From Kangiella koreensis DSM 16069 (GTDB lineage: Bacteria; Pseudomonadota; Gammaproteobacteria; Enterobacterales; Kangiellaceae), in contig NC_013166.1 of NCBI RefSeq assembly GCF_000024085.1, forward strand, positions 1,364,001 to 1,428,000: 64,000 nt of DNA. Reading direction: 5' to 3'. Position numbers and translations under genes: made by a program. Numbering within the stretch: position 1 is the first letter of the stretch; every line of letters begins with the position of its first letter. A model generated the notes under the pieces. The model worked only from the letters and a program-made list of their open reading frames with translations, searched no databases and was not told the origin of the DNA. This document shows, piece by piece, positions 8,825-58,537 of the stretch.

Positions 8825-8836
8825 TCAGGTTCCTTT

Positions 8837-10159: not shown

Positions 10160-10161
10160 TT

Positions 10162-11400
10162 ATGCATAAGTTTACTATCAAAGCGATTTTAATCAGTTTG
10201 TTAATGTTGGTTTCAGTTGGTTTTACGTCTGAAGTCGCTGCATTTTCTGGTTCTTCAGAAGTGGAAGAAGAAGTCGTAGAGAAAGGTCCACACAATGGAC
10301 GCATGCTACGCCAGGATGGTTTTGCGATTGAACTGTCAATCTTTGAAACAGGTGTGCCACCAGAGTTTCGTGTATGGGTAACTAAAGATGGCGACTCCGT
10401 TGCGCCAGAGCAGGTTGATTTGAACGTTAAGCTGACACGTCTGGGGGGAGTCGTTGATGATATCAACTTTCAGCCAGAAAATGATTACCTCAGAGGCGAT
10501 ATGGTGATCTATGAACCACACTCATTTTTGGTAACGGTTACGGCCAATCATCAAGGGACGTCCTATAGTTGGGAGTACGATAACTTTGAGGGTAGAACTG
10601 AAATCGCCGATAAGGTCGCGCAAGCAATGGGCATTGAAACTGGCATTGCCGGTCCAGCTACCTTGCACCAGACTATCGAGGTTTATGGTGAACTGAAATG
10701 GCCACCCGGAGCACAGCGCCAAATTAAAGCTCGTTTTGCAGGTGAAATTCGTAAGGTCTATGTTGACCTGGGTTCATCAGTAAAAAAAGGGGAGGTTTTA
10801 ATGACCATTGAAAGTAATGAGAGTCTAAAACCTTATTCTATCCGTTCACCGATTACTGGTGTAGTAACTGATTTATTCTCCAATGAAGGAGAGCAGGCCA
10901 ACGCTCAAGTTTTACTGGAGGTTACAACAACCGATAAGCTGGTTGCAGAGTTAGCTATTTACCCAACAGACAGGGCAAAGGTGAAACTTAATGCACCTGT
11001 TGAATTGATGATTAGCGGGTTTGATACTCCAGTTCGCTCAACCATTGATAGCAGCCTGCCTCAGACTCGCTCTGACCAGGCGAAGCTTTACCGCGTTAAA
11101 GTCGATAACACTGAACTCGGGCTTAGTGAAGGACAGTTTGTCACCGCTAAAATTGAAGTGAATACTCTGGAAGTTCCCTTGGCTGTAAAAAGAACTGGAT
11201 TACAGGCATTCAGAGATTTTACGGTCGTCTATGCCAAAGTAGGCGAGCAGTACGAAGTGAGAATGCTTGAGCTTGGTGAACAAGATAGCGAGTGGGTTGA
11301 AGTTCTGGGAGGACTTGAACCTGGCACCGAATACGTTACTGAAAACAGTTTTATTATCAAAGCCGATATCGAAAAATCCGGCGCGTCGCACGACCATTAG
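10162..11400 (+). CDS. czcB: Periplasmic adaptor CzcB-like (membrane fusion protein)
   Basis: This adaptor links the CzcA pump to the CzcC channel. It has a signal sequence (AILISLLMLVSVGFTSEVAA), then the N-terminal domain typical of CzcB proteins (GPHNGRMLRQDGFAIEL, about residues 34-50), then barrel-sandwich halves (KARFAGEIRKVYVDLGSSV and SPITGVVTDLFSNEGE), and the membrane-proximal domain. Length is 412 residues. It starts two bases after czcC ends and is followed by czcA after 9 bp, so the three are one operon. The N-terminal CzcB-type domain supports Zn/Co/Cd as substrate. Confidence 0.92.
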   Translation: MHKFTIKAILISLLMLVSVGFTSEVAAFSGSSEVEEEVVEKGPHNGRMLRQDGFAIELSIFETGVPPEFRVWVTKDGDSVAPEQVDLNVKLTRLGGVVDDINFQPENDYLRGDMVIYEPHSFLVTVTANHQGTSYSWEYDNFEGRTEIADKVAQAMGIETGIAGPATLHQTIEVYGELKWPPGAQRQIKARFAGEIRKVYVDLGSSVKKGEVLMTIESNESLKPYSIRSPITGVVTDLFSNEGEQANAQVLLEVTTTDKLVAELAIYPTDRAKVKLNAPVELMISGFDTPVRSTIDSSLPQTRSDQAKLYRVKVDNTELGLSEGQFVTAKIEVNTLEVPLAVKRTGLQAFRDFTVVYAKVGEQYEVRMLELGEQDSEWVEVLGGLEPGTEYVTENSFIIKADIEKSGASHDH

Positions 11401-11409
11401 GAGTGAGCA

Positions 11410-14400: not shown

Positions 14401-14538
14401 GAAGTACAGCGTCCATTGGCAACCGTTGTGATTGGTGGCATTATCTCTTCCACCTTGCTAACCCTGTTCGTAATTCCGGCACTGTATAAATTACTACACA
14501 AAGAAAATACTCCCAATAAGGAGCAAGTAAGTGAATAA
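11410..14538 (+). CDS. czcA: RND heavy-metal pump CzcA
   Basis: This 1042-residue inner-membrane proton-driven pump has twelve helices and two large periplasmic loops. The motif DFGLLVDGA (residues 402-410 in helix 4) is the HME-1 signature of CzcA proteins that export Zn, Co and Cd, unlike the monovalent-metal CusA type further on. PIDAVPDITNVQV near the N-terminus and GSEFVPNLDEGDIAMHALR in the second half are family hallmarks. It completes czcCBA, and its 3' end overlaps the HupE-like gene by 8 bp, implying translational coupling. Confidence 0.95.
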   Translation: MLDKILRFSIHRNFLILIAVLALAGLGLWNFKKLPIDAVPDITNVQVMINTEAPGYTPLEVEQRVTYPLETALAGLPGLANTRSVSRYGLSQVIAIFDDETDVYFARQLVNERLVSAKSELPSGLEPELGPIATGLGEIFMFTVDAEPGAVNEEGEPITPMDLRTVHDWIIRPQLMRVPGVVEVNPIGGYEREILVAFEPKKLLAFKLTQADVISAIQQNNANQGAGFIEQSGAQWLIRIPGQAENLEAIESIPLSTQNGSSIRVSDVATVSEGHGLRTGAATQNGREVVMSTVFMLIGENSRTVAHAVGEKLKEINDTLPEGVVATAVYDRTKLVDETLKTVTTNLTEGALLVIVILFLLLGNIRAAFLTALVIPFAMLMTITGMVQTRVSANLMSLGALDFGLLVDGAIIIVENCLRRLSQNSHQQGQLALRERLDIVFNATREVIRPAMFGVFIITAVYLPIFALEGVEGKMFHPMAITVVIALLSAMLLSITFVPAATALLFKKPVQEKHNYIMKGAAKIYQPALSWVLKARWIVVSVAALLVVISGYQATRLGSEFVPNLDEGDIAMHALRIPGTSLSQAIALQESLEDKIKEMPEVERVFAKIGTADVATDAVPPSVADNFIILKPRSEWPDPDKTKNQVVQELSDLVNQIPGNRYEFLQPIQMRFNELLAGVRAELAIKVFGDDLEQLAALGDEIEGAISSVEGIADLQVEQITGLPMLVIEPDAKKLAQYGISKALLQQQLATAMRGTVAGKYYEGDIRSDIVVRLNETSRSNMDNLNRLPIQINGDTAVPLQELATVKQVIGANQVNRENGKRRVVVTANVRGRDLGSFVEDIQTAINSNVDIPAGYWVEYGGTYQKLQSASDRLSLVVPLTLLMIIGLLILALGSIKDALIIFSGVPLALTGGVAALMLRDIPFSISAAVGFIALSGIAILNGLVMVSFIRELIKDRITLDKAIFQGALTRLRPVLTTALVASLGFVPMALNTGIGSEVQRPLATVVIGGIISSTLLTLFVIPALYKLLHKENTPNKEQVSE

Positions 14539-15226
14539 CAAAGCGATTAATATCTGCTTAAAAATTATTGTGGCTTTGCTGGCATTGGTTTCTGCTAATG
14601 CCTTTGCACACGGCGTTGATGACAGCACGCGAAGCTTTCTCGAAAATAATACTGGTGTGCAGTTCATTCCCTTTCTATACATTGGCGCTAAGCATATGGT
14701 GACCGGTTATGATCATTTACTGTTCCTAGCCGGTGTTATTTTCTTTCTATACAAAAGCAAAGACGTACTGTTGTATGTCACCATGTTCACCATTGGCCAT
14801 AGCATCACGCTGCTGTATGGCGTGCTCAATGATATTAACGTTAATGCCTATCTGATTGATGCCATTATCGGCTTGTCCGTCGTCTATAAAGGCTTCGACA
14901 ATCTTGGTGGCTTTAAGCGTTTATTTGGCCGACAACCCAACACGCAGTTAGCCGTTTTGATATTTGGCTTATTCCATGGCTTTGGCCTGGCGACCAAATT
15001 GCAAGAATTTCAATTACCTGAAGATGGCTTGTTGAGCAATCTGATCGGATTCAATATTGGCGTAGAAATAGGGCAGTTTGCAGCTTTAGGCATCATCTTG
15101 TTGCTCATCAATGCCTGGCGGAAACTACCATCCTATGAAAGGTTTTCCGTTACTACCAATACACTATTGATGAGCGCTGGCTTTATGCTGATGGGCTTCC
15201 AGCTCACAGGCTACTTCTTAAACTAA
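14531..15226 (+). CDS. HupE/UreJ-family membrane protein
   Basis: This 231-residue protein has a signal-like N-terminal helix (ALLALVSANAFAHG) and about six further helices, with conserved GAKHMVTGYDHLLFLAGV and LIFGLFHGFGLA. These are marks of the HupE/UreJ_2 family, some members of which import nickel or cobalt. It overlaps the 3' end of czcA, so it belongs to the czc operon. Metal transport is inferred from the family and the setting; direction and substrate are unknown. Confidence 0.82.
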   Translation: MNNKAINICLKIIVALLALVSANAFAHGVDDSTRSFLENNTGVQFIPFLYIGAKHMVTGYDHLLFLAGVIFFLYKSKDVLLYVTMFTIGHSITLLYGVLNDINVNAYLIDAIIGLSVVYKGFDNLGGFKRLFGRQPNTQLAVLIFGLFHGFGLATKLQEFQLPEDGLLSNLIGFNIGVEIGQFAALGIILLLINAWRKLPSYERFSVTTNTLLMSAGFMLMGFQLTGYFLN

Positions 15227-38541: not shown

Positions 38542-38970
38542 ATGCGAGTAAGAGAGCTAGCCACCAGCCTTGATATAACACCGGACACGGTACGTTATTA
38601 CACTCGGATTGGGTATTTGAAACCCATCAAAAACCCAAGAAATGGGTATAAAGAGTTTTGCAAGAAAGACTGGCAAAGGCTTCGCTTTATTCTGAGCGCC
38701 AGACAGATAGGTTTTTCGGTTAACGATATTGGTCAGATTCTTAAGGAGGCCGATATGCAAAAAACTCCTTGCCCAACAACAAGGAGGATAATGGAACTTA
38801 GATTACGTGGAACCGAGCAGAGATTTCGTGAAACTGCTTTACTCAGAACAAAGATAAAAACTGCACTAAAGATTTGGAAAGATAAACCAGATCAAGCTCC
38901 TACAGGAAAAATGATCTGTTATTTAATTGAGGAGTTTAGTGCTCGACAAGTGGAGAATGCATCAGTATGA
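38542..38970 (+). CDS. MerR-family regulator of the copper ATPase operon (CueR-like)
   Basis: This 142-residue protein has the MerR winged helix ([20 protein letters not shown]) and dimerisation helix. It has only two cysteines after the DNA-binding domain in likely sensor positions (TPCPTTRR and MICYLIEE), which differs from the CCHH loop of classical CueR. Such proteins are usually annotated as heavy-metal-responsive regulators. Its last codons overlap the start of a copper P-type ATPase gene (ATGA), so copper sensing is the natural inference. The promoter at 38450-38481 has the overlong spacer and dyad it should bind. Confidence 0.82.
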
Positions 38971-41267
38971 AAGAACATAGGCAAGAAAATATCAGTTCCT
39001 TTGTGACTGTGAAAAGCGAAGAGCAGGGTGCTCAGGTCGGTATGTTGGAACTGTTGGTTGAAGGAGCGAGTTGTGGTAGCTGCGTCAGAAAAATTGAAAG
39101 GGCATTGTTGGCTATTCCTGGAGTTGAGAGTGCTGAGATGAATTTTGCTCAGCGTACAGTAAGCGTGACTGGCAATGTAGAGGCATCTGCTTTAATTAAG
39201 GCGGTAGAAAAGGCCGGTTATAATGCCAAACTTACCGCTATTGAGAGCGAAGATGATGCATTAAAGGAAAAAGAAAAAGCCGATCAAGTTTATTATAAGC
39301 GTTTGGTGAAGGAAACTTGGATTGCCCTCTCACTGGGTATCCCCTTAATGGCCTACGCACTAATTACTGGTGAAGTTAACGTTAACACTACAACAGAGCG
39401 TATAGCGTGGCTAATAGTGGGCATATTGACATTTGGTGTTCTCTACTTTTCTGGTAAACATTTTTTTGTCGGTGCCTGGAAGTCCTTTCTTAATCATTCC
39501 GCCAATATGGATACGCTGATAGCGCTTGGAACCGGCACTGCATGGTTGTACTCAATGGTAGTGGTATTTTTTCCAGGCAGTGTACCCGATCAGGCACGCC
39601 ATGTTTACTTCGAGGCTACTGCGATAATTATAGGCTTGATTGACCTTGGTCTAGCGCTGGAAATTAAAGCACGTGGTCGGACTTCGGATGCTATCAAGAG
39701 ACTGATCGGACTGCAGGCAAAAACGGCTCGAGTGGTCCGTGATGGCAAAGAGTTGGATATCGCCATTGACCAGGTCTTAATAGATGATGTAGTGAGGGTA
39801 CGTCCGGGTGAAAAAATTCCTGTTGATGGAGAGGTGATTGAAGGGCATACAGCAATTGACGAATCAATGCTAACTGGCGAGCCAATGCCGGTTGAAAAGA
39901 GCCAGGGTGATACCATAGCAGCGGGCACCATTAATAAATCTGGTTCGATTCTTTTTAAAGCTACGCGGGTTGGCAAAGACACTGCATTAGCGCAGATTAT
40001 CAATATGGTAAAGCGCGCGCAAAATTCTAAACCTCCTATTGGCCGCCTAGCTGATGTGATTTCAGCATATTTTGTACCGGTGGTTATGATTATTGCTGTA
40101 ATAAGCGCCTTGACTTGGCTTAATTTTGGACCTGAACCGGCAGTAGCTTTCGCCATTGTATCAGCTACTACGGTCTTGATTATCGCTTGCCCCTGCGCGC
40201 TGGGACTGGCAACACCAATGTCGGTGATGGTGGGTGTAGGTAAGGCAGCGGAGGCAGGTGTATTAATTCGTAACGGAGAAGCCTTGCAAATGGCATCGAA
40301 GATATCGGCAATGGTTCTTGATAAAACCGGTACCATTACCTTGGGAGCTCCCAAGGTCACCGATGTGCTGGTGGCCGGTGAGCATGATCAGCAGTCCGTT
40401 TTACGGTTGGCTGCAACGCTTGAGTCAGGCTCTGAGCATCCTTTAGCTATGGCTATTGTAGAGAGTGCTAAGGATAGAGGTATCGAAACTGGCAAGGTAT
40501 CCAATTTTAACGCCATTGCCGGACATGGGGTGCAGGCCGAAGTGGAGGGTAAAACTCTGTTGTTTGGCAATGAAAAACTCATGCACGAACGAAATATTTA
40601 TCTTGGAACCTTCATTGAAAAAGCTCAATCATTGGCTTCCGATGCAAAAACACCAATGTATTTTGCGGTAGATAATCAATTAGCAGCCATTATTGCCGTG
40701 GCCGATCCTATCAAAGAAGACTCAATTGCTGCCATTAAGCGCCTCCAGCATAACGGCATCCGGGTGGTTATGCTTACTGGTGATAATCGAGCCACAGCCA
40801 AAGCCGTAGCGGAAAAAGCGGGTATAAAAGAATTTTTTGCCGAAGTATTGCCCGAAGAAAAATCCAAGAAGGTGCAAGAGTTGCAAATGGAAGGCGAAGT
40901 AGTAGGTATGACAGGTGACGGCATCAATGATGCCCCTGCTTTAGCGATTGCTAATGTCGGTTTTGCCATCGGTACGGGTACTGATGTGGCCATTGAAAGT
41001 GCGGACATCACTTTGATGCGCGGTTCGCTGCACGGCCTTGCCGATGCCATAGCTGTTAGCAAGGCGACATTGCGCAATATTAAACAGAATTTATTCGGTG
41101 CCTTTATCTATAACGTGGCTGGTGTGCCCTTCGCGGCTGGAGTTTTGTATCCGTTTTTGGGCATGTTACTAAACCCTGTTATCGCAGGAGCTGCGATGGC
41201 ATTTTCATCACTAACCGTCGTGACTAATGCCAACCGACTGCGTTTATTTAAAGCGCAGGAACACTAA
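38967..41267 (+). CDS. Copper-exporting P1B-type ATPase CopA/CtpV-like
   Basis: This 766-residue ATPase has one N-terminal HMA domain (GASCGSC, residues 33-39) and eight predicted helices. The copper-binding CPC is in [11 protein letters not shown] (about residue 408), the phosphorylated Asp in DKTGT (about 452), and the nucleotide-domain landmarks are SEHPLA, MLTGDN and [10 protein letters not shown]. The CPC motif and HMA domain assign Cu(I) (or Ag(I)) export from the cytosol to the periplasm, from where CusCBA can remove it. It is translationally coupled to the MerR-type regulator. Confidence 0.95.
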
Positions 41268-42984: not shown

Positions 42985-43356
42985 ATGAAACATCAAGAAC
43001 ATCGACTCGGCGTTTCAGAAATCAACTTAGTCGCTAGACATCTGAAACTTGAACCCTGTGCTGAGCAATGCATAGAGGCAGCTATTCAAACGATAGACCA
43101 GTTGTACGGATTGGATCATATATCCTTTGATGAAGCATCTCAGGTACTGAGCCTCGCTTATGATGCTTCGCGGCTAAGCCTTGATCTTATTGAAGAGATA
43201 ATGGAGAAAAATGGTGTTGAAGTGAGTCATGGATGGTGGACACATTTCAAAGAAGATTATTACAAGTTTGTCGACCAAAATGTTAAAGACAATGCTAATC
43301 ATAAACCGTGGAGTTGCCATAGTTCACCTCGGATACCAAGGAAAAAGCAAAAATGA
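42985..43356 (+). CDS. Hypothetical protein with an HMA-like fold pattern lacking the CxxC
   Basis: This 123-residue protein has no signal peptide. The middle part (ISFDEASQVLSLAYDASRLS, DLIEEIMEKNGVEV) resembles the second half of HMA-type metal domains, and the N-terminal part contains LEPCAEQC in place of the usual MxCxxC. The C-terminus (HKPWSCHSS) adds a Cys-His pair. It may be a cytosolic metal-binding protein. It has AAGGAG before its start and overlaps the phosphorylase gene by ATGA. Confidence 0.6.
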   Translation: MKHQEHRLGVSEINLVARHLKLEPCAEQCIEAAIQTIDQLYGLDHISFDEASQVLSLAYDASRLSLDLIEEIMEKNGVEVSHGWWTHFKEDYYKFVDQNVKDNANHKPWSCHSSPRIPRKKQK

Positions 43357-44885
43357 TTCGTCAGGTGAATAAAGGAAGTCATAACCAGCTGAAAGTTGTC
43401 GACATTGGAATTAACACTCATCAGGAGCCAGTGATTTATATGCGTGAGGATTGCCATATTTGTCGCTCAGAAGGTTTCACATCTAGTTCGCGAATAACTG
43501 TTAGTTCTTCAACCCTCTCAATAGTGGCAAGCCTCAACGTTGTTGATAACCATGTATTGGAACAAGGGTATGTAGGCTTGTCGAAGGTTGCCATGCAACG
43601 ACTTAAACCGGATTTGAATGAGATGGTAACAGTGGGGCATGCTGATGTGGTCAGCTCGTTGACAGCTCTACGCAAAAAGGTTTTTGGTAACACGCTTAAC
43701 TATACGGAACTACAGGCGATTATTACTGATATCAGTGAGCACCTATATAGTGATATCGAGATCTCAAGCTTTTTGACTGTGTGCGCTGGTGGTCGGTTGC
43801 TACCCGATGAAATCATTGACTTGACCAAGGCTATGGTAAATGCTGGTAAAAGTTTACGTTGGCCCAAATACGATCAGGTTTTAGACAAACACTGTATCGG
43901 GGGTATTCCGGGTAATCGAACGACCCCTCTCGTTGTTTCTATTGTTAGTGCCGCAGGCCATATCATGCCAAAAACTTCATCAAGAGCTATCACTTCTCCA
44001 GCTGGCACAGCTGACACCATGGAAACCCTAACCGAAGTAAATCTCGATCTTTCCGCTATTCAACGTGTAGTTCAGGAAACGGGCGCTTGCCTGTGCTGGG
44101 GTGGTGCAGTCAATTTAAGTCCTGCCGACGATCTGTTAATCAGAATTGAACGTGCTCTAGACTTGGATGGTGAAGGTCAGCTGATTGCTTCAGTTCTATC
44201 TAAAAAGATTGCTGCTGGCTCTACACATACCATTATTGACATACCCGTAGGTGACACAGCCAAAGTTCGAAACCGTGAATCGGCTGAGCGATTAGCTAAT
44301 TTATTTACCAAGGTCGGAGCTGCGTGTGGTATCCACGTTCGTTGCATTATTACTGATGGAAGCAAGCCCATTGGTTCTGGTATCGGCCCCGTTGAAGAAG
44401 CTCGTGATCTACTTGCCATCTTCAAACGTCAACAGGACGCCTCCCAGGAACTACGTGAACGAGCTTTATTATTAGCTTCTCACTTACTTGATCTGGCCGA
44501 AAACTGTGGCCTTGCTTCTGGACTAGAAAGAGCTACGTCGATACTGGAAAGTGGCAAAGCTTATGAACAATTCAAACGTATTCTTAGCGCACAAGGCGGG
44601 GGAAAGTCACTTCCCTCTTCACGGTTTCAGCATGTTCAACCCTCAAGTAAAAGTGGCACTATTGTGGCTATTGACAATCGGAAACTGGCACGACTTGCTA
44701 AACTAGCTGGAGCACCATTTACTCCAGTGTCCGGCCTTAGACTCCATTCCAATGTTGGCGATAGTGTTACCTCCCAAACACCTTTATTTACTTTGTTTAG
44801 CGACAGTCAAGGTGAGCTCGAATATGCGATGTCGTATTACAATGATAATACTGATATATTCTCAATTAGCGGGAGGTTACAATGA
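43353..44885 (+). CDS. AMP phosphorylase/thymidine phosphorylase-like enzyme
   Basis: This 510-residue protein belongs to the nucleoside phosphorylase II family, in the long form with an extra N-terminal domain (residues 1-95) as in archaeal AMP phosphorylase. The phosphate and sugar site reads DKHCIGGIPGNRTTPLVVSI, followed by KTSSRAITSPAGTADTMETL. Such enzymes split a nucleoside or nucleoside 5'-monophosphate with phosphate. AMP would give adenine and ribose 1,5-bisphosphate. The substrate cannot be decided from sequence. The gene is coupled by ATGA overlap to the genes on both sides, the next being PRPP-synthase-like. Confidence 0.87.
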   Translation: MIRQVNKGSHNQLKVVDIGINTHQEPVIYMREDCHICRSEGFTSSSRITVSSSTLSIVASLNVVDNHVLEQGYVGLSKVAMQRLKPDLNEMVTVGHADVVSSLTALRKKVFGNTLNYTELQAIITDISEHLYSDIEISSFLTVCAGGRLLPDEIIDLTKAMVNAGKSLRWPKYDQVLDKHCIGGIPGNRTTPLVVSIVSAAGHIMPKTSSRAITSPAGTADTMETLTEVNLDLSAIQRVVQETGACLCWGGAVNLSPADDLLIRIERALDLDGEGQLIASVLSKKIAAGSTHTIIDIPVGDTAKVRNRESAERLANLFTKVGAACGIHVRCIITDGSKPIGSGIGPVEEARDLLAIFKRQQDASQELRERALLLASHLLDLAENCGLASGLERATSILESGKAYEQFKRILSAQGGGKSLPSSRFQHVQPSSKSGTIVAIDNRKLARLAKLAGAPFTPVSGLRLHSNVGDSVTSQTPLFTLFSDSQGELEYAMSYYNDNTDIFSISGRLQ

Positions 44886-45793
44886 AAGGAAAAACGAACC
44901 CGATATTATTTTCACTTGAGGAACACCCTCTTGCAAATTCGCTTTGCCGTGAATTAAATTTAATCAAAGGACAATATACAAAACGACTCTTTCCTGATGG
45001 AGAGTCTTATCTGAAAATCGACTCAACCGTAACAGATACTCCTTGCATATTGTTAGCAGACTTATCGCGGCCAAACGCGAAATATCTTCCACTCATTTTT
45101 TTGCTGGACACGTTACGCGAACTGGGTGCCAAATCTATAGGACTGGTTACACCGTATCTACCATACATGCGGCAGGATCGTCGGTTTGTTGAAGGCGAAG
45201 CAGTGACATCACGACTGTTTGCTCGGACACTCTCACAACATATCGACTGGTTAGTGACTGTTGATCCACACTTACACCGTTATTACTCACTGAATGAAAT
45301 ATACAATGTTCCAACTCAAGTGGTTCAAGGGGCTCCAGCCCTAGCCGATTGGCTACAACAAAAACATGATGTACTACTGGTGGGGCCTGATACAGAAAGC
45401 GAGCAGTGGGTTTCTGAGATTTCTCGGTACAGCGGTCATCCTTATGTCATTGGTGAAAAGCATCGCTATGGTGATTTCGAAGTCGAAGTAACCTTACCCG
45501 ATATAGCTCTGCACAAGCATCGAACGGCAGTCATCATAGATGATGTTATTTCAAGTGGAGAGACCATTTTAAAATGTGTTGAAGCATTACAAAAGCAAAA
45601 TATAAAGGACATTCAATGTGCTGCCATTCATGGTTTGTTTGCTGATGACAGCGATATACGGCTATTACAATCGGGATTGCAGAAACTCTTTACTAGCAAC
45701 ACACTTCCTCACACATCTAATGTGTTTGACGTGACACTGTTACTGATAGAGCCCATCCTAAGCAGCTTGCAAATACAGGAGCTCAATAAATGA
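44882..45793 (+). CDS. Ribose-phosphate pyrophosphokinase-like protein
   Basis: This 303-residue protein is of the PRPP synthase family. The catalytic flexible-loop and ATP region reads TPYLPYMRQDRRFVEGEAV, the divalent-metal site is VTVDPHLHRY, and the PRPP-binding loop is AVIIDDVISSGETI. It is divergent from housekeeping PrsA and more like the short forms found beside AMP phosphorylase. The normal reaction makes PRPP from ribose 5-phosphate and ATP. In this gene setting it could instead connect ribose bisphosphate or PRPP with ATP recovery. ATGA overlaps occur at both ends. Confidence 0.85.
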   Translation: MKGKTNPILFSLEEHPLANSLCRELNLIKGQYTKRLFPDGESYLKIDSTVTDTPCILLADLSRPNAKYLPLIFLLDTLRELGAKSIGLVTPYLPYMRQDRRFVEGEAVTSRLFARTLSQHIDWLVTVDPHLHRYYSLNEIYNVPTQVVQGAPALADWLQQKHDVLLVGPDTESEQWVSEISRYSGHPYVIGEKHRYGDFEVEVTLPDIALHKHRTAVIIDDVISSGETILKCVEALQKQNIKDIQCAAIHGLFADDSDIRLLQSGLQKLFTSNTLPHTSNVFDVTLLLIEPILSSLQIQELNK

Positions 45794-47145
45794 AAATCAC
45801 TTTCCTCGGCGGCACTGAAACAGTTACCGGCTCAAAATTTTTGGTAGAAACCACTACTAGTCGTGTACTGGTTGATTGTGGATTATTTCAAGGCTATAAA
45901 TGGTTGCGTGAACGTAACTGGCAGGAGCCTCTTTTTGATATTAAATCATTGGATGCCGTAATTTTAACTCATGCACACCTGGATCATTCTGGCTATATCC
46001 CAGCATTATACAAGCAAGGATACAGAGGACCAGTTTATACACACCATGCTACTAAAGATTTATGCGCCATACTGCTTGCTGATAGTGGGCACATACAGGA
46101 AGAGGATGCAAAATATTATTCAAAACATAAATTAGGCAAACACGCTCATCCACAACCGCTTTATGACAGAGCTACAGCCGAAGAGTCTATGACCTTATTT
46201 CAATCGTTGGAATTTGGTGAAATTATAGTGGTTGGCGACTTGTCGTTTCATCTACAATCAGCCGGCCATATTTTAGGTGCAGGTAGCGTGATTCTTGAGG
46301 CCGAAGGAAAGCGAATAGGTTTTTCCGGCGATGTTGGGCGTCCAGATGATATATTGACACTTCCTCCCAAACCACTTCCAGATCTAGATCTATTGCTCCT
46401 TGAATCAACCTACGGTAATAGACGTCATGATACCGAAAATCCTTATAAACAGCTTGCAAAAATAGTTAATGAAGCAGCGCAAAGAGGAGGCGCTGTGCTG
46501 ATCCCTAGCTTTGCCGTGGGTCGGGCTCAAACATTACAACATATGCTCACTACACTGATGAAATCGGGTGATATTCCAAAATTACCAATCTATCTTGATA
46601 GTCCCATGGCAATCAATGTCTCTGATATCTATTGCCATTATAGCAAACTGCATCGATTGACTGATGAGGAATGCCACCGTATGTGTCAAACGACAACTTA
46701 TACCCGAAGTGTAGAGGATTCCAAAGCGTTAGCTCAACAGCATTATCCCCATATCATTATTGCAGGTAGCGGCATGGCTAGTGGCGGTAGGATATTACAT
46801 CACTTTAAACGATTGCTGGGAGATCCAAAAACAACCGTTCTTTTCAGTGGTTATCAAGCTGGCGGTACACGAGGCGCTAAAATGTTAGATGGAGCAGAAA
46901 CGGTAAAAATTCATGGTAAATGGATACCAATAAAGGCGAGGGTGGAAGTGTTACAGCACCTCTCTGGACATGGAGATTATGTTGAAATCGAACAGTGGCT
47001 AAAAAGCTCAGACCTTAAAAAACAATTATCTATCCAGTTAATCCACGGTGATCCAGAGGCGTTAGAGTCTATGCAAAATTACTTGCAGAGCGAGACCAAT
47101 TTTGAGGTAGATGTCGCAAGTTATCACAGAACATTACATGTTTAG
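45790..47145 (+). CDS. Metallo-beta-lactamase fold RNase of the beta-CASP type
   Basis: This 451-residue protein has all the motifs of bacterial beta-CASP nucleases related to CPSF73: FLGGTETVTGSKF at the N-terminus, the zinc-ligand box HAHLDHSG, SGDVGR, the beta-CASP motifs LLESTYGNR and SGMASGGR, FSGYQAGGTRGAKM, and the C-terminal LSGHGD. It should cleave RNA endo- or exonucleolytically using two zinc ions. It is coupled by ATGA overlap to the PRPP-synthase-like gene, so RNA breakdown may supply nucleotides for the phosphorylase; this link is inferred. Confidence 0.9.
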   Translation: MKITFLGGTETVTGSKFLVETTTSRVLVDCGLFQGYKWLRERNWQEPLFDIKSLDAVILTHAHLDHSGYIPALYKQGYRGPVYTHHATKDLCAILLADSGHIQEEDAKYYSKHKLGKHAHPQPLYDRATAEESMTLFQSLEFGEIIVVGDLSFHLQSAGHILGAGSVILEAEGKRIGFSGDVGRPDDILTLPPKPLPDLDLLLLESTYGNRRHDTENPYKQLAKIVNEAAQRGGAVLIPSFAVGRAQTLQHMLTTLMKSGDIPKLPIYLDSPMAINVSDIYCHYSKLHRLTDEECHRMCQTTTYTRSVEDSKALAQQHYPHIIIAGSGMASGGRILHHFKRLLGDPKTTVLFSGYQAGGTRGAKMLDGAETVKIHGKWIPIKARVEVLQHLSGHGDYVEIEQWLKSSDLKKQLSIQLIHGDPEALESMQNYLQSETNFEVDVASYHRTLHV

Positions 47146-47164
47146 AAATTTAGGAGATCAAAGG

Positions 47165-47623
47165 ATGAATATTAAAACCTTAAAAGATGTACTGCACTGG
47201 ACCAGTGAGTTTCACCAGCACCTTTCTAATTGCTTAAGCCATTGTGCCAAAAATAATAAGAATATTCGAGCAAAGCTGTACCTAGACTATTTAGCTATGC
47301 ACGAGATGTCCTTATCGAAGGCGCTGAATAGATCTGAAATAGACAGTGACATTAAAGCACTTGATACTTGGTGTTATGAATATTTAGAAAACCACCCAAT
47401 TCATAGATATAGCAACTGTGACCGCCCCTTTGCTGAGCTAGATATTGATGAGATCATTACTGAAATTCTGCACATCAATAAACAATTAATTGAGCTATAC
47501 AAGAACCTATCCGCGCGTACTGTCGCGCCAAGCGCCCAAGAGTTGCTACAAAATATTTTGGAGCTAGAAGAGCATGATGCTATGTTTATGACGAAGGGAT
47601 TTAATCGATTAAATGACTTGTAA
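47165..47623 (+). CDS. Hypothetical helical protein
   Basis: This 152-residue protein is nearly all helical (VLHWTSEFHQHLSNCLSHC, LDYLAMHEMSLSKALNR, LLQNILELEEHDAMFMTKG), which would suit a four-helix bundle of the ferritin or hemerythrin type. Scattered His, Glu and Asp residues are present, but no family metal site can be assigned. The start at 47165 follows GGAG; an earlier in-frame ATG overlaps the nuclease. The family is not recognised. Confidence 0.62.
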   Translation: MNIKTLKDVLHWTSEFHQHLSNCLSHCAKNNKNIRAKLYLDYLAMHEMSLSKALNRSEIDSDIKALDTWCYEYLENHPIHRYSNCDRPFAELDIDEIITEILHINKQLIELYKNLSARTVAPSAQELLQNILELEEHDAMFMTKGFNRLNDL

Positions 47624-47682
47624 ATAGTGCTTAATCAGTTTGGCAAGCAAGAAGGTTGTAAGATAACCTAAGGAGAAAGATC

Positions 47683-47937
47683 ATGAAAATCAATGAACTG
47701 AAATTTGGTTTGGCTACGGCTATTTCATTTGGGTTGGTGTGGCTGATTTGTAGTCTGTTAGTCTGGCTTATGCCGTCTCTGATGTTGGGTATTACTGGTC
47801 ACATGATACATGGTGATTGGTCACAGATGGGATGGCAACTTACACTAAAAGGAGTTGTTTACGGGTTGGTTGGCTGGATGCTTCTGGCTGGATTTTCCGG
47901 TTGGCTACTGGCAGTATGTTACAACAAACTTCGCTGA
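47683..47937 (+). CDS. Small membrane protein, DUF5676 type
   Basis: This 84-residue protein has two helices (ATAISFGLVWLICSLLVWLM, and LKGVVYGLVGWMLLAGFSGW) separated by a short loop with HMIHGDWSQMGW. This is the typical layout of DUF5676 proteins encoded near copper and phosphoketolase genes. The function is unknown. AAGGAG precedes the start. Confidence 0.75.
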   Translation: MKINELKFGLATAISFGLVWLICSLLVWLMPSLMLGITGHMIHGDWSQMGWQLTLKGVVYGLVGWMLLAGFSGWLLAVCYNKLR

Positions 47938-47966
47938 TGCAAAATTGATTCGATTGAATAAACCCC

Positions 47967-49094
47967 ATGAAAACTTCGGCTATAGGCATTATTAATCCAG
48001 GAAGTGCCACGCTTAAATGGGCAATATACGACTCTATAACAACAGTTGATGTCAGCGCAGAGGGGCAGTGTAAAGCCGATGAGATATCATCGCTATTACA
48101 ATCTCTAAATACAGCAGGCATCTCAATTTATATTGTCCGTTTTGTTCATGGTGGCCCCAGTTTATTCAAGCCAACTTTGATCACTGAAAGTACTTTAAGG
48201 TCTCTGGAGTCGTTAGCTGATCTGGCACCTCTTCATAACAAACTAAGCTTGAAATGTATTGTTCAACTGTTGCAATTAGATTCTCAAGCAAAAATTATCA
48301 CCGTTTTTGATACCGAGTTTTTCCATGAGTTGCCGCTAACGGCACAGCTGCTTGGATTGCCAATGTCCTTGCAGAATAAATATTCATTACGGCGCTACGG
48401 CTTCCACGGTTTTGCACATGCTGGCATGTTGGATTTCTGGCAATCGACTACGTCTGAATTTTCGCTAAAAGTTAACTCTCGTCGCTTAGTGACCATGCAG
48501 TTAGGTAGTGGTTGTTCTATGGCCGCGATACTCGATAACCGACCAATTGAGACAACCATGGGATTTACTCCGAGTGAAGGATTGCTTATGAGTACCCGCT
48601 GTGGTGACTTAGATCCCGGCCTTCTGACATGGCTACAGAAGCGTGAAGGTTGGACTCCCTTTGAAACTGAAGAGATCTTAAATAATCAGTCTGGGTGGTT
48701 TGGGGTATCAGGTGAGAGTGGGAATATGGCAGATTTATTGAGTAGCACATCGCCACAAGCTCTATTAGCTGTTGAGCTCTTCCTCCACCGAATCCGAAAA
48801 ACCTTAGGTAGTTATATTGCTTTGCTGGGTGGGCTTGATGGCATTGTCCTCAGCGGTGGTATTGCTGAGAATGCAGTATCACTTTGTTTGCGCATACTGC
48901 GAGAACTCGAATTTTTCAACATTCACGTCATAGAGCCGCAGACTGAGAAGTTTCCAACAACTCTTGGTAATCGCCAAGCCTTGTGCTTGTCCGTAGATAA
49001 TAACCAAGGTGTCCAATGTTGGATCATGAAAGGTAACGAACATCAAACCATGTTGCAGTCTGTTGCTCGCTGCAAGTGGTTTTACAAACTCTAA
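47967..49094 (+). CDS. ackA: Acetate kinase (divergent)
   Basis: This 375-residue enzyme of the acetate/propionate kinase family catalyses acetyl phosphate + ADP to acetate + ATP in this context. Family motifs are present but altered: NPGSATLKW near the N-terminus, LRRYGFHGFAHAG, the phosphate loop QLGSGCSMAAI, ETTMGFTPSEGLLMSTRCGD and LSGGIAEN. It is shorter than usual (about 400). It ends 14 bp before the phosphoketolase, which makes acetyl phosphate, so the two form an ATP-yielding pair. The ribosome site is weak. Confidence 0.92.
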   Translation: MKTSAIGIINPGSATLKWAIYDSITTVDVSAEGQCKADEISSLLQSLNTAGISIYIVRFVHGGPSLFKPTLITESTLRSLESLADLAPLHNKLSLKCIVQLLQLDSQAKIITVFDTEFFHELPLTAQLLGLPMSLQNKYSLRRYGFHGFAHAGMLDFWQSTTSEFSLKVNSRRLVTMQLGSGCSMAAILDNRPIETTMGFTPSEGLLMSTRCGDLDPGLLTWLQKREGWTPFETEEILNNQSGWFGVSGESGNMADLLSSTSPQALLAVELFLHRIRKTLGSYIALLGGLDGIVLSGGIAENAVSLCLRILRELEFFNIHVIEPQTEKFPTTLGNRQALCLSVDNNQGVQCWIMKGNEHQTMLQSVARCKWFYKL

Positions 49095-49108
49095 TAAAGG
49101 GGAAGTTG

Positions 49109-51475
49109 ATGTACCCAATTAATGAACAAGACCTACATCGCATTCAACAGCGTGCGAACTTGTATCGTTCACATTATCCAGCTTTTGCGCGCTGGGCCAA
49201 AGGATACGGTGTTATCCGACATACCGACGAAACCCAGGTACGAGTTTTCGACTTATGCCAGCAGTTACTATGTCATGGACGATATGCAAGATTTGAGGAT
49301 ATTGTAGCTATATTGTGTGCCGCTGATCGACTGGCGAGTGCTTCCATGTGGCTGGTTACACATATGACTTATGCTAGAAATGTATATCTGGATGGACATG
49401 AGCTTAACAACGAAGATTTCAAAGAGAACCCTCAGGGACACACTGGGGGATCGCTTAATATGGTTCCTGGTTATGTGGGATACCTTGCAGCTAACGTGCT
49501 AGCCGGCCATACCAGAAGCTGGTTGATGGGACAGGGGCACTGTGTGGCTGCAATTGACGCAGTCAATGTTTTGCTAGGCAATGTGTATAAAGAGCAAGAG
49601 GAGCGCTATTCACTTAACGAGCAAGGGTTATCTCGTTTGGTGCGAGACTTTTATGGCTATGCTACTGATGAAGATGGACGTCCTGAGGCGCCTTTAGGCA
49701 GTCATGTGAGCCCACACACAGCAGGCGGGTTGATCGAAGGTGGATATCTTGGGTTTGCTGAGCTGCAGTATGTTCATATGCCGTTACCAGGTGAGCGGTT
49801 AGTTGCCTTTATTAGTGATGGAGCGTTTGAGGAGCAGCGAGGCAGTGACTGGGCTCCTCGCTGGTGGAGAGCGGAGGACTGTGGTTTGGTTACGCCTGTG
49901 ATGATTGCCAATGGTCGCCGGATTGATCAACGCTCCATCATGTACCAACAAGGGGGGCTCGAGTGGTTCTACAATCATTTACAGCATAATGGTTTTAGCC
50001 CAATAACAATTGATGGTAGGGATCCTGCAGCATTTATTTGGGGAATCTTTGAATCAGAAAATAGACTCTCGGCTTGTGCAGAACAGATTGCTTCTGATCA
50101 AATGCATTACCCAGTAAGGCTACCTTATCTGATCGCGGAAACAGTAAAAGGATACGGGTTTTATGGTGCAGGAACCAATGCCTCTCATGGTACACCTTTG
50201 CCTGCAAACCCTAGATACGATGCTAAGTCCCGGACATACTTCAACCAGTATGCGCAACAGTTATATGTACCCAAAATTGAACTTGACTTAGCAATTAGTG
50301 CATTCCTCACTCATGATATTGATCTGCGGGTCAGGGAAAAAGATCATGCCCTGACACAACGTAATCCGCATATTAATGAGGTACCGAAGGCTGGCTGGCT
50401 GCAAGTCGGAAAGCTCGAATCACCTATGATTGCAGTGGATCGTGAGGTACGCGCTCTTCTGGAAGCTAATCCTGAGCTCAGGCCTCGTTTGGGCAATCCA
50501 GATGAGCTACGGAGCAACCTTATGAACCTAACACTAGACTACTTGAATCATCGGGTATTAACACCAGAAAAAGGGGTTGCAGAGTCGATACATGGTGGGG
50601 TGATTACCGCCCTGAATGAAGAGGCGGTTGTCAGTGCTGCTTTAGCAAATAAGGGGGGAATCAATCTGGTTGTATCTTATGAAGCTTTCGCCGTGAAAAT
50701 GCTGGGCGCTTTACGGCAGGAGATTATTTTTGTTCGTCATCAAAAGGTATTGAACCGACAGCCGCAATGGCTTTCTGTGCCCGTTATTGTAACATCTCAC
50801 CTTTGGGAAAATGGTAAAAACGAACAATCCCATCAGGATCCAACTTTTGGCGAAGCTTTTTTAGGTGAAATGAGTGATACTTCCCGGGCTATATATCCTG
50901 GTGACAGCAATACAGCGATTGCTTGTATTCGTGAGTGTTATAGAACTAGGGGGCAGATCTGGGCGCTCACTATACCCAAACAGTCGCTGGAAACATTTTT
51001 TACTCCTGAACAGACCAAAATGCTGTTGCAGTATGGTGCATTCACCCTATTTGGGGAAGGTGATATACAGCTGGTTGCTGTTGGTGCCTACCAATTGCGC
51101 GTTTGCTTCGAGGTGCATCAGCGGCTTAGTGCGGCAGGAGTCAAAAGTTGTGTCACCTATATGATCGAGCCAGGACGTTTCCGCAATGCAAGAGATTCGC
51201 TGGAAAGTTCTTTCATAGTCGACGATGTTACTCGAGAAAATTTGTTTCCACCAGATATAGCATTACGTGTATTCGTCGCTCACATGCGACCTGAAACTCT
51301 GGCAGGCATTTGTCGGCCTTTAGATCTCGGGATCAGCAAAACTCTCTATTTTGGATTCATTAATCACGGTGGTACATTGGACACACAGGGGCTGTTAAAA
51401 GCAAATCACTCGGATACCGACAGCGTTCATACAGCGATTTGTCAAAGACTCTTAAGAAATGAACCTAGACAGTGA
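49109..51475 (+). CDS. xfp: Phosphoketolase (divergent XFP family)
   Basis: This 788-residue thiamine-diphosphate enzyme would split xylulose 5-phosphate (and perhaps fructose 6-phosphate) with phosphate to acetyl phosphate plus glyceraldehyde 3-phosphate (or erythrose 4-phosphate). Recognisable parts are HTGGSLNMVPGYVGYLAANV, GQGHCVAAIDAVNVLLGN and SHLWENGKNEQSHQDPTFGE. The pyrophosphate-binding motif is changed: AFISDGAFEEQRGSDW followed by IANGRRIDQRS replaces the GDGEAETG and NGYKI forms of well-known phosphoketolases. The start at 49109 follows AAAGGGGAAG. It directly follows acetate kinase. Confidence 0.9.
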   Translation: MYPINEQDLHRIQQRANLYRSHYPAFARWAKGYGVIRHTDETQVRVFDLCQQLLCHGRYARFEDIVAILCAADRLASASMWLVTHMTYARNVYLDGHELNNEDFKENPQGHTGGSLNMVPGYVGYLAANVLAGHTRSWLMGQGHCVAAIDAVNVLLGNVYKEQEERYSLNEQGLSRLVRDFYGYATDEDGRPEAPLGSHVSPHTAGGLIEGGYLGFAELQYVHMPLPGERLVAFISDGAFEEQRGSDWAPRWWRAEDCGLVTPVMIANGRRIDQRSIMYQQGGLEWFYNHLQHNGFSPITIDGRDPAAFIWGIFESENRLSACAEQIASDQMHYPVRLPYLIAETVKGYGFYGAGTNASHGTPLPANPRYDAKSRTYFNQYAQQLYVPKIELDLAISAFLTHDIDLRVREKDHALTQRNPHINEVPKAGWLQVGKLESPMIAVDREVRALLEANPELRPRLGNPDELRSNLMNLTLDYLNHRVLTPEKGVAESIHGGVITALNEEAVVSAALANKGGINLVVSYEAFAVKMLGALRQEIIFVRHQKVLNRQPQWLSVPVIVTSHLWENGKNEQSHQDPTFGEAFLGEMSDTSRAIYPGDSNTAIACIRECYRTRGQIWALTIPKQSLETFFTPEQTKMLLQYGAFTLFGEGDIQLVAVGAYQLRVCFEVHQRLSAAGVKSCVTYMIEPGRFRNARDSLESSFIVDDVTRENLFPPDIALRVFVAHMRPETLAGICRPLDLGISKTLYFGFINHGGTLDTQGLLKANHSDTDSVHTAICQRLLRNEPRQ

Positions 51476-51553: not shown

Positions 51554-52687
51554 ATGAAAAGTACTAGCTGTGAAAAAAAATGCGCCCCCAATAAAGGTGA
51601 GATATCGACTTCACCCTCTGTTAATAGCTTTCAGTTATTTACAGAAGGTGATGATCTATACTCATCCATGTTGACCGCAATAACTGGAGCCAAAGAAGCT
51701 ATAAGGCTTGAAAGCTATATCTTTTCTGATGACTCGATAGGGAGCCAATTTTGCGAGGCACTTGCTGAACGGGCTAGGGCTGGTATCAAGGTAAGGGTTC
51801 ATATAGACGCGGCAGGTTCATTATTTTGGTTTTCGCGTAAAATGCAACACCAACTACGTAGCAACTATGTTGAGCTTCATTGGTTTCACCGTTGGAGTTG
51901 GCACAAACCTTGGCGCTATAATCGACGAAATCATCGCAAGTTACTTGTAGTAGATAACCATGTTGCCTTTCTTGGTGGATTCAATATTCATAAAGAAAAC
52001 TCTCAAGCTATGTATGGAGATTTGCGTTGGCGAGATACTCATATAAGCATCAGAGGACCACTTGTTGAGGTGGCTTCACAGTTGTTTGACTCATTTTGGC
52101 AACGTCGCCTGTATTGGTTACCCGAGCAGGAGCAGGAGCAGCAGGGCGGTAGACTGCTACACAATCATACTCGGACCTGTCGTCACCGTCTTCGATGCAT
52201 ATATAGTGGTGCGTTTGCGAATGCCAAAAAGTATATTTATCTTACAACACCATATTTTGTCCCCGACAGTTATACGCTTGAACAATTACGCAAGGCCGCA
52301 GAGCGCGGTGTGGACGTCAGATTATTACTCCCTCGTAAGAGTGATGTGCGTATTACAAGCTGGGCCGCTCACCATGTTTACGCTTCTTTATTTGCGTTCG
52401 GAGTAAGGGTTTATGAGTACCTTCCAAGAGTGCTACATGCAAAAACTGTTGTTATTGATGATGACTGGATTATAGTGGGAACTGCTAACCTTGACTATCG
52501 TAGTTTATTTATTAATTACGAAATTAATCTAGAAGCTACAGATCGGAAATTGGCGGCAGAACTAAAAGAGCAGTTCTTACAAGATTTATCACAGTCGGAG
52601 TTCATATTATCTAGAAATTGGGAGCGGCGTGGGTTAAAGTCGCGTTGTTTGGAGCTGCTTGCAATAATCTTAAAACGATGGCTGTAA
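51554..52687 (+). CDS. Phospholipase D-family protein, cardiolipin synthase-like
   Basis: This 377-residue protein has two HKD motifs: NHRKLLVVDNHVAFLGGFN (about residues 126-144) and HAKTVVIDDDWIIVGTANLD (about 295-314). Both catalytic His-Lys-Asp sets are complete. It has no N-terminal membrane helices, unlike ClsA, and is nearest to ClsB-type cardiolipin synthases. It would transfer phosphatidyl groups between lipids. It is the last gene of the long plus-strand run, 78 bp after the phosphoketolase. Confidence 0.85.
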   Translation: MKSTSCEKKCAPNKGEISTSPSVNSFQLFTEGDDLYSSMLTAITGAKEAIRLESYIFSDDSIGSQFCEALAERARAGIKVRVHIDAAGSLFWFSRKMQHQLRSNYVELHWFHRWSWHKPWRYNRRNHRKLLVVDNHVAFLGGFNIHKENSQAMYGDLRWRDTHISIRGPLVEVASQLFDSFWQRRLYWLPEQEQEQQGGRLLHNHTRTCRHRLRCIYSGAFANAKKYIYLTTPYFVPDSYTLEQLRKAAERGVDVRLLLPRKSDVRITSWAAHHVYASLFAFGVRVYEYLPRVLHAKTVVIDDDWIIVGTANLDYRSLFINYEINLEATDRKLAAELKEQFLQDLSQSEFILSRNWERRGLKSRCLELLAIILKRWL

Positions 52688-57724: not shown

Positions 57725-57847
57725 GATACGAAGCTACTTGATTGATGTACCATATGTCCGTATTACACATCCTTTATTCGAGTAAGACAAGGCTTCTTTA
57801 AACCTGTGCCTTTGTTATCGCAGTATATAAGAAGGATTTTAATTATT

Positions 57848-58537
57848 ATGGAAAAATACGTGATCCATATTGATGATGTGATAAGTGAATTCAGTCCAGT
57901 TCTTAGACTTTGGCTAAACAATGGATTAAGTAAATACAGTTACAGACTAGCTGCGTTTGTAATTCTACAAATTGCAGAAAATTCTATTGATAATTTTCCC
58001 ATAACTATAGCACCAATGGAATTTAATACTGAATATTACAAAAACGACCTAGTTAACATTTCCAGCAGAGTTAACGTTGGTATCGACGAAATAAAAGCAT
58101 TCTATTGTAGCAGTGAAAGTTGTTATATAGATTTTGACATAAAAAAAGTGGGGCGGACAAAAACTATTCTTGTTAACTCATATTCCAACCAATACTCTGA
58201 AATATCGCTGGATAATAAATCAATACTAAAAAATATTCTGGGACTAAAAAGCCTCTATGCAACAAGATTGTATCTACTCATCAATCATATCTTGGAGTGT
58301 AGTGAAAAACAGTTAGGCTTTTACTCGTTTCATATGGATGAAATTCTGAGCTATTTAGCTCAAAGCAACCAATCTAAATATCAGAATAGATTTACTGATA
58401 TATGCAGAAGGCTTCTGGATCCATCAATCGAGCAAATTAACGAGGTCACCAATATTCAATTAACCCTAGATCAAATGCATGGCGATTTCTGTCGAGAAAA
58501 AAAGGGGATGATAGGTCTATTCGCTTATAAAACCTAA
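57848..58537 (+). CDS. Rep_3-superfamily plasmid replication initiator
   Basis: This 229-residue protein shows the pattern of iteron-binding initiators. The clearest part is the C-terminal winged helix: GLKSLYATRLYLLINHILEC, then FHMDEILSYLAQSNQ, YQNRFTDICRRLLDPSIEQI and NEVTNIQLTLDQ. The N-terminal domain (YSYRLAAFVILQIAENSID) fits the first winged helix. It would open a plasmid origin by binding direct repeats, and two such repeats lie 56 bp downstream. The start at 57848 is used because AAGGA stands before it and the earlier ATG adds an unlikely stretch. Its presence in a chromosomal setting suggests an integrated plasmid. Confidence 0.75.
   Translation: MEKYVIHIDDVISEFSPVLRLWLNNGLSKYSYRLAAFVILQIAENSIDNFPITIAPMEFNTEYYKNDLVNISSRVNVGIDEIKAFYCSSESCYIDFDIKKVGRTKTILVNSYSNQYSEISLDNKSILKNILGLKSLYATRLYLLINHILECSEKQLGFYSFHMDEILSYLAQSNQSKYQNRFTDICRRLLDPSIEQINEVTNIQLTLDQMHGDFCREKKGMIGLFAYKT

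Follow-up and report, generated by a model that had tools for sequence, protein, structure and literature searches.

How could a bacterium make use of ribose 1,5-bisphosphate (R15P) released from nucleotides when no R15P isomerase is seen in its genome? The question is raised by a run of genes in Kangiella koreensis DSM 16069 (NC_013166.1), located within a stretch of 64,000 nucleotides (positions 1364001-1428000 of the 2.85-Mb genome, a single contig), which we call the window and to which the coordinates below refer. A preliminary description of this DNA had named AMP-phosphorylase-like, phosphoribosyl pyrophosphate (PRPP)-synthase-like and beta-CASP RNase genes chained by ATGA overlaps and followed by acetate kinase and phosphoketolase genes, and had suggested that they lead from nucleotides to ATP under copper stress. 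All five genes are present on the + strand in the order described according to the list of open reading frames (ORFs), with families matching the Pfam and NCBIfam assignments, and the overlaps at 43353-43356, 44882-44885 and 45790-45793 are real. We report that the phosphorylase and the PRPP-synthase-like protein form a near-obligate pair, optionally joined by the RNase, phosphoketolase and acetate kinase, that the PRPP-synthase-like partner is altered, and that the RNase and phosphoketolase are linked independently of the pair; these three points are new here. The absent isomerase may be no gap at all, because the PRPP-synthase-like partner could be a changed enzyme placed for exactly that step.

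We sampled 299 genomes drawn evenly from the phylum of the host and called families by profile cut-off. The phosphorylase family was found over its cut-off in 35 genomes and the PRPP-synthase-like family in 33, every one of which (33/33) carries the phosphorylase. A further phosphorylase genome, G285, has a partner just below the cut-off (299.6 vs 322 bits). The hypergeometric P for joint presence, with counts entered by hand, was ~6e-42, a value that ignores relatedness and overstates independence because relatives were counted separately. By position, 32 of the 33 genomes have the partner directly next to the phosphorylase, which in G236, one of the 32, is a piece at a contig end; in G293 and in one of the two G154 copies, the RNase and phosphoketolase genes lie between the members of the pair, within 4.5 kb.

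Gene neighbourhoods were counted by tblastn within the fetched stretches of two sets of loci. Set A contains the best 80 of at least 568 related stretches, with named loci picked by similarity, and is biased to close relatives. Set B contains 36 loci fetched from the 299-genome sample, leaving out the two loci of the host's own genome and the split G236 locus and taking in one locus below the cut-off (G255); one family (f33) accounts for 10 of the 33 non-own genomes with an over-cut-off locus. The partner was found in 74 loci of set A and 34 of set B, the beta-CASP gene in 51 and 17, phosphoketolase (Pfam XFP) in 24 and 5, and acetate kinase in 14 and 4, respectively. The recurrence of these families around the pair confirms that they co-occur elsewhere. 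Where the two genes of the pair are adjacent, they overlap or abut in 47 of 67 cases in set A and in 20 of 28 in set B. Record titles in set A cover Pseudomonadota, Bacteroidota, Verrucomicrobia, Acidobacteria and Planctomycetota, and 12 annotated plasmid loci include 11 with the partner and 8 with a full beta-CASP gene. All five families, together with a glucan phosphorylase, are found on a Chlamydiota plasmid. Gene order differs among lineages, so the set appears to have been rearranged more than once. Among the matches listed in open-licence literature, we found no published description of this gene combination.

The phosphorylase (43353..44885, +, 510 aa) belongs to the PRK04350 family, commonly annotated as "thymidine phosphorylase family", and scores 640.6 bits with NF003338, well over the curated cut-off of 434. 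Its match to the AMP-phosphorylase equivalog model TIGR03327 spans residues 12-507 of 510, and the N-terminal extra region is present. The best solved relative is the archaeal AMP phosphorylase 4ga5 (311.5 bits), with which it has the SSRAIT..AGTAD site motif in common. We aligned 117 phosphorylase and 105 partner sequences, all full length, taken from both sets of loci, the window, a second copy in the same genome and six plasmid loci, with duplicates removed for the partner; the positions of the site motif are kept in 106-117 of the 117 members. The site motif of DeoA, GRGLGHTGGTLDK, is absent from the window phosphorylase, which reads SRAITSPAGTADT, and five of five true DeoA proteins (thymidine phosphorylases) carry SGRGLGHTGGTLDK at this site. 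On the site motif and the profile scores, we reject a thymidine phosphorylase function. A nucleoside monophosphate (NMP) phosphorylase would be expected to produce R15P.

TIGR00511, the model for R15P isomerase, gave 0 matches across the whole genome of K. koreensis (G000), in agreement with the preliminary description. It was over the cut-off in 0 of the 35 phosphorylase hosts and in 3 of 14 control genomes, and we therefore reject an archaeal-type pathway with the isomerase for these hosts. The weaker matches in 18 of the 35 hosts reach at most 187 bits against a cut-off of 314.1 and are probably methylthioribose-1-phosphate isomerases. A PhnN-type kinase converting R15P to PRPP was also considered for the host's own genome and rejected: the match reaches only 50.5 bits where 156 would be required and is probably guanylate kinase. 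The genome does contain Rpi and Rpe, and ribose 5-phosphate (R5P) could therefore reach xylulose 5-phosphate.

We then compared, by homology, the 105 partner sequences with 10 canonical PRPP synthase paralogs, each taken from a different host genome, that of the window included. The window partner (44882..45793, +, 303 aa) belongs to the PRK07199 family (NF005537, 328.3 bits with a cut-off of 322). Its AlphaFold2 model has a pLDDT of 94.4, and the nearest fold is the PRPP synthase 3mbi, with template-modelling scores of 0.86/0.91. For the PRPP synthase of E. coli, D170 is described as holding the metal at R5P, and the residues that bind R5P are D170, D220, D221, T225 and T228 (PMC9232217); in the human enzyme, the K194A or R196A mutation made the activity undetectable (PMC4363470). 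We adopted the names of the pyrophosphate (PP) loop and the R5P loop from PMC12238573. The catalytic Lys and Arg of the flexible loop (K193 and R195, 105 of 105), the metal Asp (D170, 105 of 105), and the Asp pair and Thr of the R5P loop (D220 in 104, D221 and T228 in 105) are retained in the partner family, with the same residues in the canonical paralogs. The substrate loops differ from the canonical ones. Within residues 171-174, which we take to be the PP loop binding pyrophosphate, position 172 is Glu in 104 of 105 partners and position 173 is Ser in 102, versus Gly at both positions in 10 of 10 canonical paralogs, so that D-x-E-S stands in place of D-x-G-G(A). Position 224 of the R5P loop is Ser in 104 of 105 partners versus Asp in 10 of 10 canonical paralogs, Ser being found also in three archaeal PDB sequences. 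Position 227, Gly in 10 of 10 canonical paralogs, is variable in the partners (Arg in 53, His in 18, Gln in 17, Gly in 2, and others), and the combination of D224 and G227 is thus not characteristic of the partner family. The window partner itself reads D170-T-E172-S173 in the PP loop and S224-S-G-E227-T228 in the R5P loop. The sole partner with G-G (L149) is closer to canonical PRPP synthase (150 vs 77 bits).

A glutamate in the PP loop would be expected to oppose the distal phosphate of the pyrophosphate. Attack of AMP on the C1 phosphorus of R15P corresponds to the reverse PRPP-synthase reaction minus the outer phosphate, and we therefore propose the reaction R15P + AMP -> R5P + ADP. The partner would then be a changed enzyme, an R15P:AMP phosphotransferase, an assignment from sequence that we put forward tentatively and with a low probability. 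Transfer of the C1 phosphate to AMP would give R5P directly and would thus make the isomerase unneeded.

The retained residues are also what an ordinary PRPP synthase would have. On this explanation, the pair would serve nucleotide salvage or PRPP supply for stress repair, and the phosphoketolase and acetate kinase would be a separate fermentation unit. The catalytic Lys/Arg, metal Asp, His130, and the Asp pair and Thr of the R5P loop are all kept, the NCBI family name is ribose-phosphate diphosphokinase, and XFP was not seen in 31 of the 36 set B stretches fetched. Furthermore, a 2026 preprint (PMC13252144) describes catalytic residues kept across PRPP-synthase classes, divergent ones included, and takes them to mean a preserved reaction. 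However, a canonical PRPP synthase is already present in 10 of the 10 hosts fetched, and such redundancy leaves the near-invariant change of G-G to E-S over 105 sequences unexplained. Nor does an ordinary PRPP synthase account for the close association with a gene of the NMP-phosphorylase type. We consider this explanation rather unlikely.

The partner could instead be a non-catalytic regulator of the PRPP-synthase-associated-protein type, tuning the phosphorylase to adenylates and leaving R15P to a separate phosphatase or kinase. The close translational coupling of the pair suggests a complex, PRPP-synthase pseudoenzymes are reported to be widespread in eukaryotes (PMC13252144), and the protein preceding the second phosphorylase copy in the genome is of the exo/endonuclease/phosphatase family. 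This view is weakened by the strict conservation of D170, K193 and R195, whereas human PRPSAP2 has lost the equivalent D171, K194 and R196 (PMC12238573), and we give it only a small chance. A third possibility is that the two enzymes run in the anabolic direction, R5P + ADP -> R15P + AMP followed by R15P + base -> NMP, as an ATP-sparing salvage of bases. Both reactions are reversible in principle, and phosphorolysis of purine nucleotides tends towards synthesis. However, adenine and other phosphoribosyltransferases usually serve this purpose, and linkage to an RNase and a phosphoketolase suits breakdown better; we regard the anabolic direction as improbable. Mere hitch-hiking of unrelated stress genes gathered on a copper island, as the other cargo of the island (efflux systems, cardiolipin synthase, transporters) and its plasmid-type Rep gene (57806-58537) might suggest, is improbable for the whole set and unlikely already for the pair, given that the same genes recur jointly across several phyla, in genomes as well as on plasmids, with differing order and surroundings and that in 28 of the 36 set B loci the fetched stretch has no copper-type ATPase.

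The remaining three enzymes could extend the work of the phosphorylase and its proposed phosphotransferase partner from RNA to ATP. The beta-CASP metallo-beta-lactamase ribonuclease (45790..47145, +, 451 aa; Pfam Beta-Casp 2.3e-36, RMMBL 1e-13) has the HxHxDH metal site, the beta-CASP motifs and the RMMBL domain, and 65 members of the family keep the residues of the metal site and the motifs. The nearest solved relative is RNase TTHA0252 (255.7 bits), then Cas14. For both beta-CASP proteins of the genome's two loci (45790-47145 and, at the second copy, 13373-14764 of L009), the best NCBIfam model is type VII CRISPR Cas14, with 358.8 and 348.6 bits against a cut-off of 800; judged by these scores, Cas14 may have arisen close to this family.

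The acetate kinase (47967..49094, +, 375 aa; Pfam Acetate_kinase PF00871, 8.8e-71, 239.1 bits) is the sole copy in the genome. N10 is found in 16 of 17 sequences (one gap) and R58, D115, H147 and R211 in 17 of 17; we assume that these are the catalytic residues. Truncation was considered and rejected: the Pfam match begins at profile position 88, yet the ORF does contain the N-terminal NPGSATLKW motif. In Methylophaga thalassica (L004, 17718-18316), the annotation splits acetate kinase into two short pieces, and the gene looks broken. The phosphoketolase (49109..51475, +, 788 aa; Pfam XFP 1.3e-38), the sole XFP of the genome, most likely starts at ATG 49109 rather than at GTG 49076. In the numbering of the longer, 799-aa ORF, H122, H155, H210, H371, E536, H586 and K635 are found in 28 of 28 sequences, and we presume for these positions the roles of their counterparts in the Bifidobacterium enzyme. 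In the W-x-x-x-[HK]-N motif, Lys replaces the His before Asn in 22 of 28 sequences including the window's (K-type); this His is presumably H548 of the Bifidobacterium phosphoketolase. The structural model is of moderate confidence (pLDDT 78), with phosphoketolases ahead of transketolases among the nearest folds, and the nearest solved relative scores only 71.4 bits. Judged by these profile and motif comparisons, the window phosphoketolase is a deeply divergent subtype. The gene identities, regarded as well supported in the preliminary description, hold at the family level and fall short at the equivalog level, where the acetate kinase misses TIGR00016 (242.6 vs 293.4 bits), the phosphoketolase misses the NCBIfam subfamily cut-offs (best 112.3 bits vs at least 777), and the phosphorylase likewise misses its own (see below).

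XFP (PF03894) occurs in 48 of the 299 genomes, namely in 12 of the 35 that have the phosphorylase versus 36 of the 264 that do not (Fisher P 0.004). It lies less than 10 kb from the phosphorylase in 6 of the 12 genomes, where about 0.1 would be expected within 12 kb. A divergent XFP class (134 to 154 bits) comprises 13 genes in 12 genomes; 5 of these genes, in 4 genomes, are located by the pair, the window's among them. All 8 divergent-XFP genomes lacking the pair have the WENGKN motif, and in 6 of the 8, all of one family (f11), the gene is back to back with a beta-CASP gene, which indicates that the link between the RNase and the divergent phosphoketolase does not depend on the nucleotide pair. 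In the fetched stretches of the two other genomes, both of family f16, no RNase gene was seen.

Taken together, these genes could form a salvage module for times of blocked respiration, in which the ribose of RNA and nucleotides is used to make ATP. The beta-CASP RNase would help to release 5'-NMPs, and the phosphorylase would convert NMP + Pi to base + R15P. The least certain step would follow, in which the partner would move the C1 phosphate of R15P to AMP, and chromosomal Rpi and Rpe would then lead from R5P to xylulose 5-phosphate. The phosphoketolase would split this into acetyl phosphate and glyceraldehyde 3-phosphate, and acetate kinase would make ATP from the acetyl phosphate. The reactions and the direction of flux are here read from gene content, co-inheritance, catalytic residues, altered loops and the absence of the isomerase. 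That the module takes NMP ribose to acetyl phosphate and ATP, whatever route turns R15P into a pentose 5-phosphate, has in our view slightly less than an even chance. The more specific proposal, that a new R15P:AMP phosphotransferase makes the pair a bacterial NMP degradation route which saves the C1 phosphate as ADP and by-passes isomerase and RuBisCO, and that with RNase and phosphoketolase bacteria blocked in respiration, for instance by copper, would burn their own RNA, is speculative and we hold it to be unlikely as a whole. The nucleotide-to-ATP pathway of the preliminary description thus gains from the co-occurrence of the families, the presence of Rpi and Rpe, and the only acetate kinase and XFP of the genome, and loses copper as its defining context.

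Copper genes are indeed frequent neighbours, common on the plasmids and islands with the module and not in the fetched stretches of other loci. In the window, a MerR regulator and a copper P-type ATPase (38542..41267, +, by Pfam) form the neighbouring context outside the module. A copper-ATPase-like gene lies near 45 of 80 set A loci but only 8 of 36 set B loci, so that the suggested role in copper stress does not define the module. In Pseudomonas aeruginosa, PA3613 (phosphoketolase) and PA3614 (metallo-beta-lactamase superfamily) are listed as up at low oxygen (PMC8575079), which points to blocked respiration as a broader trigger; we matched this gene couple to the module by annotation and adjacent locus numbers rather than by sequence. 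The likely trigger is thus any block of respiration, copper being one such case.

Other neighbours include a type II GAPDH near 13 of 124 clustered loci (L073, 7465-8517, and 12 other loci), which is archaeal-type (NF003251 419.6 bits for the one tested) and fits use of the glyceraldehyde 3-phosphate made by the phosphoketolase, and a 2-hydroxyacid dehydrogenase near 8 of the 124. Glucan phosphorylase is a further recurrent neighbour. PPK2 occurs in 9 and an ATP-cone protein in 16 of the 80 set A loci. The latter, seen in L078 (7431-8270) and 16 other loci, from Bacteroidota and some others, often precedes the RNase gene and is a possible adenylate sensor; the only one tested, that of L078, also has an Mrr-like nuclease domain. 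Near the module on named plasmids are an alternate F1F0 ATPase, universal stress proteins, Pta-AckA and alcohol dehydrogenases. On a Legionella anisa plasmid (L182, record 1-9577), an alternate F1F0 ATP synthase operon directly follows the pair. These recurrent neighbours indicate ATP supply under stress.

FNR-type boxes number 38 in 116 loci, whereas 59 permuted half-sites gave 6.5 on average and 28 at most; few of the boxes lie before module genes. One exact FNR-type palindrome is located at 8203 in L009, just upstream of the run of genes that contains the second phosphorylase copy, and the sole exact palindrome in the window is at 19196, far from the module.

Besides the preserved reaction assumed in the preprint, several observations weigh against our proposal. 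Under standard conditions, R15P + AMP -> R5P + ADP probably runs uphill, and it would depend on plentiful AMP and on R5P being drawn off. The argument from the PP loop comes from sequence, and a ligand-bound structure could place E172 otherwise. The phosphorylase scores 457.1 bits with TIGR03327, below the cut-off of 535. As to the pair, no PRPP-synthase-like partner was found by profile search in the phosphorylase genome G249, nor was one seen in 6 of the 80 set A loci, of which L070, L083, L087 and L094 have ample flanks; 1 of the 12 plasmid loci (L185 8753-10500, on a Shinella sumterensis plasmid) also has a phosphorylase without the partner. In L185, an RNase gene fragment precedes the phosphorylase and a cytochrome gene follows it. 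All five families are found in only 3 of the 36 set B loci, and the pair occurs without the other three in 15 of the 36, so that it must also function without a neighbouring phosphoketolase. Pairing of XFP with the RNase outside the module rests on the single family f11. With regard to regulation, an FNR box lies upstream of the phosphorylase in 5 of 116 cases, XFP in 2 of 29, the RNase in 0 of 64, the partner in 0 of 104 and acetate kinase in 0 of 18, compared with 30 of 1614 other ORFs, which is a weak test; no exact box is found near the module of the window or in 8 divergent-XFP loci.

The overlapping chain is headed by a 123-aa ORF that the preliminary description had not named (42985..43356, +; RBS-like AAGGAG), followed by the phosphorylase, PRPP-synthase-like and beta-CASP genes. 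A Pfam search with this ORF, whose function is unassigned, gave zero matches; a similar ORF is present in 13 of 80 set A loci, often beside the phosphorylase. The acetate kinase and phosphoketolase genes run in the same direction as the trio, as described, but do not directly continue the chain, since two genes intervene between RNase and acetate kinase. The first is a 152-aa ORF (47165..47623, +), annotated as "ATPase" in Methylophaga, for which 47165 is a likelier start than 47111, with a ribosome binding site at 47165; it has nothing over the cut-off in the Pfam search, keeps the same position in two Methylophaga plasmids, and occurs in 8 of 80 set A loci. The second encodes a DUF5676 membrane protein with two transmembrane segments (47683..47937, +; PF18926, 6e-25). 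Downstream of the phosphoketolase, a cardiolipin-synthase-like phospholipase D protein (51554..52687, +; PLDc_2 7.5e-46; 5 of 80 set A loci) is a possible passenger. The second phosphorylase copy of the genome, 47% identical and ~50 kb downstream, lies in the order phosphatase-family, phosphorylase, PRPP-synthase-like, Na/Pi cotransporter, beta-CASP (L009 = G000:C1:1448000-1467000, 8611-14764), with a copper-type ATPase close by and no phosphoketolase there. Among named sequences, those closest to the module come from Kangiella, Methylophaga and further marine gammaproteobacteria. The Rep gene of the island encodes a replication initiator (Rep3_C, E 5e-8) and suggests that the copper island derived from an integrated plasmid. 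Megablast gave no match to near-identical plasmid copies of the module in a collection that may omit near relatives of the window.

The closest known system is the archaeal pentose bisphosphate pathway of Thermococcus (NMP shunt), with AMP phosphorylase, R15P isomerase and form III RuBisCO (PMC9700705). The module resembles it in its phosphorylase, which carries the N-terminal region and the site motifs of the archaeal enzyme, and in R15P as the expected product. Unlike it, the module hosts show no R15P isomerase above the cut-off and have the near-obligate PRPP-synthase-like partner in its place, and the outlet would be phosphoketolase or central metabolism rather than RuBisCO, for which no search was made. 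The non-carboxylating pentose bisphosphate pathway of halophilic archaea likewise breaks down nucleosides through R15P without RuBisCO, but starts from guanosine via ribose 1-phosphate kinase and needs R15P isomerase, ribulose bisphosphate phosphatase and aldolase (PMC9700705). With PRPP synthases, among them the divergent classes II and IV-XI of bacteria (PMC13252144), the partner has in common the fold, catalytic Lys/Arg and metal Asp, and it differs in the E-S pyrophosphate loop, the altered R5P loop and the pairing with the phosphorylase; the terms thymidine phosphorylase and gene cluster were not found in the main text of that preprint. As in the phosphoketolase/acetate kinase route of fermenters, a pentose phosphate would yield acetyl phosphate and then ATP, with active-site residues conserved, whereas the phosphoketolase of the module is deeply divergent and RNase-linked. 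PA3613/PA3614 of P. aeruginosa bear the same two annotations (PMC8575079), and the six f11 genomes have both families side by side, unlike the module, without a phosphorylase/PRPP-synthase-like pair over the cut-off. In many bacteria and plasmids, the two families bear the annotations thymidine phosphorylase and PRPP synthase, and both names are probably wrong. The proposal, if true, would explain how energy could be gained from RNA without oxygen or a working respiratory chain and why fermentation genes are found in metal-resistance islands. The prediction is sharp. If the proposed chemistry is right, the pair would represent a bacterial route for nucleotide ribose that is not used by the archaeal pathway.

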